Part shown: positions 17,324-48,395 of the stretch, in pieces
How the letters are laid out: every line of letters starts with the position of its first letter
Numbering within the stretch: the stretch's first letter is position 1
NCBI GenBank assembly: GCA_947303715.1
Contig: CAMYYY010000007.1
Location: forward strand, 1-64,000
DNA: 64,000 nt
DNA from: an uncultured Bacteroidales bacterium
GTDB taxonomy: Bacteria; Bacteroidota; Bacteroidia; Bacteroidales; Bacteroidaceae
Reading direction: 5' to 3'
Program-made: the position numbers and the translations under genes
Notes under the pieces: generated by a model
Databases searched by the model: none
Seen by the model: the letters and a program-made list of their open reading frames with translations, nothing else
What the model was told of the DNA's origin: nothing

Positions 17324-18970
17324 ACCGGCATCGGCGGAAAGGCTGTCGGGATGGAGCTCGGCGTACATGCGGTGGCCTTCGTTTACGGCCTCCATGCGGT
17401 TCTCGTCGAAGGTAATCTCCATGACGTACCAGCGGTTGCACTGCTTGGTCTTGCGCTTCTGGAAACCACGATGCTTGAGGGCCGTACCGACGTTCTTGGC
17501 ATTGACCTCGGATGAATTGTTGAGCTGGCGGAGCTTGTTGATGATTTCGCCGAAGGGGACCAGGCGTCCCTGCTCATCGTCGGTGGGGGTGCGGTAGCAG
17601 ATGGCAAGGAGTTCCTCGCAGAGGTTGGGCGTGGTGTAGTCGACGTTGTGCTGCTCGATACGGCGTGTGTCGCTGATGGTGAGGGTGTAGTCGTCGGCAT
17701 GGCCGCTCTTGATGGTGTGCCACGCCTGGGCGTAGGCCTGCTCAAGGGGCAGGGTGTCATCGGTGAAGGTGACGGTGCCGGCAACGGGCACGGAGAGGTA
17801 GCGGCGGTTGCCGTCAGGCTCGGGGATGTACTGCTCGTCGTTGCACGAGCCGATGAACGACGCCACGCGGGTGCGGCTCTCGCTGAAGTGGGCGAAGGGG
17901 GCACGGACGTCGATGCTGGCACTGGTAATGATGGCGCGCAGGGTGTTGGCCGTGCGGGAGTCGTTCTTGAACTCGTCGAAGATGAGCAGGCCCTTCTCAT
18001 TGATGGAGATGAGGGTGTCCTTGTCGAGGCGCTCGTTGGGATAGACCACCTTGGCATAGCTGCGCAGGCTGGGCGGTAGCAGGTGGGTACAGAAATAGGT
18101 CTTGCCGGCATGGGGCGGCCCCACGAGCACGGGCATGAGCTGGTTGTCGTCGGCACGCCCGACCAACAGGGCTACCAGACGGATGAACCACTTGCGGAGC
18201 AGCGGCATGCAGAAGTCGCGCTCGGCATCACCGCCCGCAAAGGTGATGAAGCTGAATAGCTGGGCGATGTAGTCGTTCGTGGCATCCCATTCGGGCAGAT
18301 GTTCGAGATAGTCAATGAATGGGTTGTACGAGGGGGTGAAGTCGGGGTTGTCGATGATGGAATGGAGGTTTTCCTTCGTGATGCTGATATGCTCCTTGCA
18401 CACCCCGACGAAGAGGCTGTTGAGGTTGCGGTCGTCAATGGGCATCCAGTCGCCATCGGGCACACCCTCCCATGTGAGGTGGCGCATCTCGGTCTTGCGG
18501 GTGATCTCGTTGTAGCGGAACTGCGCCATCTCCCTCAACTTTTCCTCCGCAAGGTGGAATTTGGTGGGTGCATCGTCCTCAGCGTTTTCGTCGGAGCCTT
18601 TCTTGCGGGGGCGTCCGCGACGGGGACGCAGCTCGGCGGGCAGGCTGATGTCCACCCCTGCCTGCTCGGCCAAATGGTAGAAGGTGGCGATGCCCACCTG
18701 GTTACGGCTGGACTTCATGCAGTTGGTAAACTTGGCATCGCAGTCGTCCATGTCGTAGCCCTCGTGGAGGCAGCTGACACGATGGAACAGCGGGCGCCCC
18801 TCCTCGCCCAGCGAGGCAAAGGCAAAGCCCAGTTCCACCCAGCGGTCGTAGTCGGATGTCAGGTCGATATGCTGGTTAATCACTCGCTCCACCACCGTCT
18901 GGGCGTGAAGCCTCTCCTTCTCGCTGCCGTTACTGTGCTTCGCGGCAGAATCAAACAGTTTTCTGGTCAT
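17288..18970 (-). CDS. VirE/virulence-associated E family P-loop protein with primase-C-terminal-like N-terminus
   Basis: PVLVGPPHAGKTYFCTHLLPP; LLIFDEFKN; IGSCNDEQYIPEPDGNRRYLSVPV. Confidence 0.85.
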   Translation of the reverse strand: MTRKLFDSAAKHSNGSEKERLHAQTVVERVINQHIDLTSDYDRWVELGFAFASLGEEGRPLFHRVSCLHEGYDMDDCDAKFTNCMKSSRNQVGIATFYHLAEQAGVDISLPAELRPRRGRPRKKGSDENAEDDAPTKFHLAEEKLREMAQFRYNEITRKTEMRHLTWEGVPDGDWMPIDDRNLNSLFVGVCKEHISITKENLHSIIDNPDFTPSYNPFIDYLEHLPEWDATNDYIAQLFSFITFAGGDAERDFCMPLLRKWFIRLVALLVGRADDNQLMPVLVGPPHAGKTYFCTHLLPPSLRSYAKVVYPNERLDKDTLISINEKGLLIFDEFKNDSRTANTLRAIITSASIDVRAPFAHFSESRTRVASFIGSCNDEQYIPEPDGNRRYLSVPVAGTVTFTDDTLPLEQAYAQAWHTIKSGHADDYTLTISDTRRIEQHNVDYTTPNLCEELLAICYRTPTDDEQGRLVPFGEIINKLRQLNNSSEVNAKNVGTALKHRGFQKRKTKQCNRWYVMEITFDENRMEAVNEGHRMYAELHPDSLSADAGGGGVEGCGGVF

Positions 18971-47669: not shown

Positions 47670-47693
47670 TTCCCGATTTTTCTCGAAACACCC

Positions 47694-48074
47694 CCAACAC
47701 TTACCTTTTCCCTCGTAAGGTGTTGACAATAAAGAGGTAAACATAGGTAAGTGTTTGTCGAACACTTACCTAACACCTACCTAAGACCTTCCTGTTTGAA
47801 AGGCACACTCGTTTTCATTACTCAACGCTCTCAAGTTCTTGACTGTTTGATCGTTCTACATATAATTGTCTTGTAATTGCTCAAGTTTACTGCGCCAGCC
47901 ATTCATGGAAAATACGTGGTAATTCGTGTTTTCTTTCTTTATAATTCTCTGATTCCCACCATTTTCAGACACCAAGGTAGGTGTTAGGTAGGTGTTAGGT
48001 AAGTGTTTTGCAAACACTTACCTAACTTAACGTATTGTATCATAGTGAGTTTTGGGCAAAAAGGTAAGTGTTGG
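47694..48074. repeat. Mirror-symmetric array of 11-bp motif AGGTARGTGTT (possible MITE-like or structured element)
   Basis: Motifs at 47696-, 47745+, 47761-, 47772-, 47783-(degenerate), 47975+, 47986+, 47997+, 48013-, 48062+; all five pairs centre on 47884. Confidence 0.9.
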
Positions 48075-48209
48075 CATTTTTTTTCGCAAACAATCTCCTC
48101 TGGAAAGAATCGCAAGAACCGGACAAATGACAGACCGAATCAAAGAGCTGTCCCCATTATACGTCGAGTTGAGAACCGTCCATTCCTATAAGAAAGTGGC
48201 GTCTGCTGC

Positions 48210-48395
48210 GCGGTTTGTTTTTCAACCCGTAACTTCTTCGTCCAAATGATGTGCCTGCAACGTAGTGCGAACTGTCGATAACGCACTACGTCTATGTCGT
48301 AGCGCACTACGTCCGCGTCAGAACGCACTACGTCTGTCCGCGCACGTAGTGCGTCGTGCGTCACCGGTTGCGTGACGGGTTGAAAAGGAAACCGC
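48210..48395. repeat. 24-nt inverted repeat (21/24) enclosing a 21-bp-period CGCACTACGT array
   Basis: Arms 48210-48233 and 48372-48395; 10-mers at 48260+, 48282-, 48303-, 48324-, 48344+. Confidence 0.85.

Follow-up and report, generated by a model that had tools for sequence, protein, structure and literature searches.

A mirror-symmetric intergenic repeat in Bacteroidaceae is a gene-less relative of one-gene VapE elements

The mirror-symmetric array of AGGTARGTGTT sites that lies behind an S41 protease gene in a 64,000-nucleotide stretch of Bacteroidales DNA (the window) belongs to a family of dispersed repeats that occurs across gut Bacteroidaceae, and is a short member of it without a gene. 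Since the versions of 1.55-1.7 kb found in relatives hold a gene between their arms, the ~380-bp unit is a gene-less, MITE-like derivative of these longer elements, whose only gene encodes a VapE-type helicase. We think it probable that the arms are iteron-like ends which are bound and used by this VapE, an initiator resembling SaPI PriRep, and that gene-less copies are served in trans.

Nine exact copies of the motif and a tenth with two mismatches make up the unit (Table 1), at the positions that an earlier note made from the sequence alone had given. With up to one mismatch allowed, the motif occurs 13 times in the 64-kb window, whereas 1.15 occurrences are expected by chance and none of 100 shuffles reaches 13. 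The exact mirror symmetry claimed in the note holds for the positions of the sites, all five left/right pairs sharing the midpoint 47884, but not for the sequence, which is not an exact palindrome. The observation that the two spacers have kept their length while diverging in sequence was correct: the left arm is of type A and the right arm of type B, and the spacers differ because A and B ends each have a conserved spacer of their own. Inspection of ORFs likewise yielded no credible candidate in the centre of the unit. An Rfam hit of the unit to mir-302_2 was set aside as chance (E 0.044, far under the gathering score), and the plasmid collection gave no match when searched with the DNA of the unit. 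Just past the B end, the decamers CGCACTACGT and ACGTAGTGCG cluster in both orientations (48259-48360), forming a further short repeat array. The window also holds a VapE paralogue (17462-18547, minus strand) in a 587-codon frame, 29% identical to the VapE of the elements; no arm-like repetition of a motif was seen around it.

Table 1. Features of the repeat unit and its borders (positions in the window)
Feature	Position	Strand	Remark
S41 protease stop codon	47667-47669		outer A-end tail begins 7 bp after
Outer A-end tail, T tract / CGAAACACCCC	47676..47695		conserved outside site 1 in A-type ends
Left arm (A end) site 1	47696..47706	-	exact motif
A-type spacer, CGTAAGGTGTTGACAATAAAGAGGTAAAC class	47707..47744		conserved in A ends of L099-L108, L114
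Left arm site 2, inverted relative to the other sites	47745..47755	+	motif scan
Left arm site 3	47761..47771	-	motif scan
Left arm site 4	47772..47782	-	motif scan
Left arm site 5, degenerate, 2 mismatches	47783..47793	-	
Non-coding centre, 181 bp	47794..47974		in place of the VapE gene of full-length elements
Right arm site 5	47975..47985	+	motif scan
Right arm site 4	47986..47996	+	motif scan
Right arm site 3	47997..48007	+	motif scan
Right arm site 2, inverted relative to the other sites	48013..48023	-	motif scan
B-type spacer, CCAAAACTCACTATGATACAATACGTTAA class (shown on - strand)	48024..48061		conserved in B ends
Right arm (B end) site 1	48062..48072	+	motif scan
Outer B-end tail, GGCATTTTTTTTCGCAAACA, T/A tract	48073..48092		conserved in B ends

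Arms of this kind occur on many contigs of the same genome (3.03 Mb, 91 contigs), with the outer site at 0, the inverted site at +49 and further sites at +65, +76 and mostly +87. A gapped three-site pattern counted 128 arms with identical site spacing in six genomes of the genus, namely 19 in the window's own genome and 25, 31, 1, 23 and 29 in the five relatives with full arms, while the reversed pattern, used as a control, had no match in the same six genomes. Each end has at least five sites, arranged as an outer site, a spacer of ~40 nt, one inverted site, a 5-nt gap and two to three or more tandem sites, and the two arm types, A and B, have distinct, individually conserved spacers and outer tails. 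The earlier note had named scattered 11-mers and arms of variable length as the finding that would speak against its reading; related genomes hold arms of invariant spacing instead. Its proposal of a MITE-like, non-autonomous element with compound terminal inverted repeats is supported, since each genome has the paired layout in dozens of places and there are full-length versions that carry a gene. No ORF of 130 aa or longer encloses any of the 44 distinct short pairs, and convergent genes flank 16 of the 35 pairs that were scored. When one genome per GTDB species was scanned, the arm pattern was confined to MAGs titled Bacteroidaceae, Bacteroidales, Prevotellaceae, Prevotella or Candidatus Minthosoma, many of whose titles name rumen samples; the viral contigs of IMG/VR contained none. 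The family accounts for a class of mirror repeats in intergenic DNA, some of which coincide with contig breaks in MAGs from the rumen. Within a genome the motif letters are homogenised (G017 has only AACACCTACC), and such concerted change fits either a shared binding protein or homogenisation.

In its full-length form the element runs from a B end through a promoter region and one VapE-type AAA+ helicase gene to an A end, as in L099, L100, L101, L102 and, from another MAG, L233. The A and B ends of G011 (two copies), G008 and G016 lie 1.6-1.7 kb apart and enclose one ORF of ~406 aa that is read from the B end towards the A end, and a copy in G017 is broken off by the contig end. One genome has two full-length copies, L099 and L100, at separate places, and L233 is a more distant element (65% identity, 1.55 kb) built to the same plan. 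In the window the A end lies near the 3' end of the S41 protease gene, a convergent host gene, and A ends have the same kind of neighbour in L099, L100, L101/L102/L117, L114 and L233. The window's own genome, which is 88% complete and has several contigs that end in arms, contained arms and no full-length copy of this VapE lineage. Assembly breaks lie in or beside arms on contigs C8, C26, C35, C55 and C84 of G000, and full-length copies may therefore be under-represented in this MAG.

The element protein has a VapE-like domain (E 2e-33). Its Walker A, Walker B, sensor and GSRR residues do not vary across 23 homologues, and comparison of six element copies gives a dN/dS of 0.11-0.20. It is a stand-alone VapE-type AAA+/SF3-like helicase under purifying selection. 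Its sole PDB relative by sequence is 7pds (E 1e-20), which is also the best fold match to the VapE model (pLDDT 83.5; E 6e-17) and which is the SaPI1 PriRep1 initiator helicase with double-stranded DNA. A domain search of the ORF found no transposase, recombinase or HUH domain and no Y1 transposase domain. When phages and plasmids were searched with VapE by tblastn, every relative returned had less than 60% identity (about 25-34% for the top matches), and five of the phage-collection scaffolds had no arms.

The mirror-arm arrangement is general, recurring around stand-alone VapEs of several Bacteroidaceae genera with motifs that are specific to each lineage. A second VapE lineage of the same genus (489-490 aa, ~32% identity) is flanked on both sides, in L125 and L139, by the motif ATCTACAC at 0, 9, 54, 72, 81 and 90, and further ATCTACAC arms are dispersed (control 0). 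An HU-like gene, named by eye, sits just outside one arm of this second lineage in all four genomes (L123, L124, L125, L139). Among the 151 genomes of the family that were searched, stand-alone VapEs of ~400 aa with 50-71% identity occur in other genera, where arms of the same syntax have a motif of their own at each locus: AACATGTACC at L334, AACACCTATC at L335, AACACCYCAC at L336, AACCCTCCAC at L337, AACCTGTCAC at L338, ACTCTCCACTA at L340 and TTTTCGGTCA at L341. The spacing of the two arms is matched within the locus at L335 (0,50,65,77), L337 (0,62,77,88,99 on both sides) and L347, and nearly so at L340, and it differs between loci. An arm detector found at least one arm at 17 of 20 scored stand-alone VapE loci and both arms at nine or more, these loci including some orthologues and some cut by contig ends, and those where the motif rule missed the gene being left unscored. 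The detector failed at L386, L387 and L394, the last of which is the L334 locus, where separate inspection recognised degenerate arms. No arms were detected at 276 random window places or in earlier controls (0/400 and 0/570), and other VapE classes of the same genomes (those of 440-550 aa and most of ~700 aa) are mostly without arms and serve as an internal control. The single-contig genome G176 holds a 2.63-kb repeat with a 693-aa VapE-type gene in four copies (L360, L364, L365, L366) that are 94-96% identical and have a sharp end at CGCGCACGTACATAGGG; this is a different type of VapE element without mirror arms, and it was left out as proof because it has no arms of the present type.

No candidate enzyme that would join the ends to a new place was found in the elements, VapE being their sole gene. 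Nor was a target-site duplication found when joined flanks were searched for in the genus, when G000 was compared with G016, when the copies of one subfamily were aligned, or when the DEAD-box locus was compared with G011; the same comparisons gave no clean empty site, the flanking intergenic DNA being diverged, rearranged or filled with repeats. It is conceivable that the arms are ordinary transposon ends on which an unlinked transposase or recombinase acts, with VapE as an accessory ATPase (as TnsC, MuB and IstB are) or as cargo. The two unlike ends, the ordered multiple sites and the bend-like T/A tract resemble complex transposon ends, and VapE is absent from most copies in a genome. However, it is the sole gene in every full-length copy seen, and since the same arrangement recurs with other motifs around diverged VapE lineages, an unlinked enzyme would need to track each of these lineages. 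We regard this explanation as unlikely.

It is quite improbable that the arms are operators, or an immobile chromosomal network of sites for VapE or a regulator, spread by duplication, recombination and gene conversion. Such a network would agree with the failure to see empty sites or target duplications and with the homogenised motif of G017, and some copies have long flanks in common and the neighbouring genes differ among relatives. Yet dozens of copies lie at unrelated places, L099 and L100 being apart in one genome, internally deleted versions retain both ends, and none of the 44 pairs is enclosed by a longer ORF. We give hardly any credence to a structured RNA or bidirectional terminator kept for its hairpins, the RNA branch of the earlier proposal: sites 2 and 3 do form a perfect inverted repeat around a 5-nt loop, T tracts mark the edges and many pairs lie between convergent genes, but the variable letters of these hairpin partners agree no more often (97/125; the other 28 are mismatches or wobbles) than do those of sites 3 and 4, a tandem couple unable to pair (93/125), the compensatory base-pair changes expected of a structured RNA were not found, an Rfam search gave no family match beyond the chance microRNA, and the arms are inverted at the two ends of one gene.

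Because partner agreement does not exceed tandem agreement, protein-binding sites fit the arms better than an RNA hairpin does, and we infer that each site is an iteron, bound as double-stranded DNA by the VapE of its own lineage. Motif and VapE lineage vary together, as linked inheritance alone would also bring about. There may be room for a bending protein, as a T/A tract lies outside site 1 and the spacer has a conserved AAC...TTA dyad. In the mechanism that we favour, in which VapE uses the arms as iteron-like ends, the protein would assemble on the iterons of its own lineage, by analogy with SaPI PriRep1, and open the DNA so that replication of the element starts. Copies would enter new intergenic sites, often just past stop codons, with the help of host functions or of a recombinase in trans, and gene-less copies, having retained both arms, could be served in trans by VapE made elsewhere. 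It is possible, and we propose it tentatively, that these elements form a class of mobile DNA in Bacteroidaceae with a single gene, whose product, an origin-binding VapE, with host functions alone multiplies and spreads DNA bounded by mirror arrays of lineage-specific iterons, accompanied by gene-less parasites of its own and using no transposase; if true, one would have to ask whether an initiator helicase is able to drive dispersal in the absence of a transposase. In Bacteroidales, VapE-like genes are common and mostly lack an assigned role; if the arms are origins or ends, many orphan VapE genes would turn out to be small selfish elements whose target sites can be read. The distinct motif-helicase lineages would offer a natural set for learning how SF3-like initiators recognise DNA.

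The open-access papers searched describe no VapE-based mobile element in Bacteroidales, and within this limited literature search the arrangement of one helicase gene, mirror site arrays and gene-less copies appears to be new. The replication module of SaPI/PICI elements shares the VapE/PriRep-fold initiator helicase, as the 7pds matches by sequence and fold indicate, and in each SaPI, Rep and the ori iterons match specifically. Here, however, the helicase is the sole gene, with no primase, integrase, packaging or other phage-linked genes, the repeats make up a mirror arm at either end, and the chromosome has scattered copies without a gene. Like MITEs, the unit is short, non-coding, multi-copy and intergenic, with terminal inverted repeats shared with a longer coding element, but the partner's single ORF encodes a VapE-type helicase rather than a transposase, the ends are ordered arrays and no target-site duplication is seen. 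REP/BIME sequences with RAYT are paired inverted short palindromes in intergenic DNA, whereas the partner ORF here is without a Y1 transposase domain and the sites are ordered arrays with an inner spacer. The resemblance to integron attC sites is that of a 7-mer, GTTAGGT; the partner gene found here is a helicase. BrickBuilt of Porphyromonas gingivalis, as portrayed in an excerpt of PMC4596501, is likewise an intergenic Bacteroidales repeat (~19 copies) with internal short repeats; it consists of a head-to-tail 23-nt minisatellite with IS-like terminal repeats, and the excerpt names no helicase partner or mirror array of ordered sites.

Minimal versions of the unit, 125 bp long, in two genomes (L253 2687-2811 and L271 6115-6239) have a central palindrome common to both arms, in the order site 1, spacer, palindrome, spacer, site 1. 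In L110 (1233-2915, G011:C46) and L058 (2197-3466, G000:C11) three arms follow one another (L, L, R), the first two enclosing small genes, a DUF3990/DUF3791-like pair named by eye, as possible cargo. Minisatellites with units of ~20 bp (AGCCCAnTGGnATRA; AGCGTTTGATTCTATTTTG) adjoin many elements, outside the B end in L099-L102, L111 and L114 and outside one arm in L067 and L279, and copies of them are widespread in the intergenic DNA of the genus.
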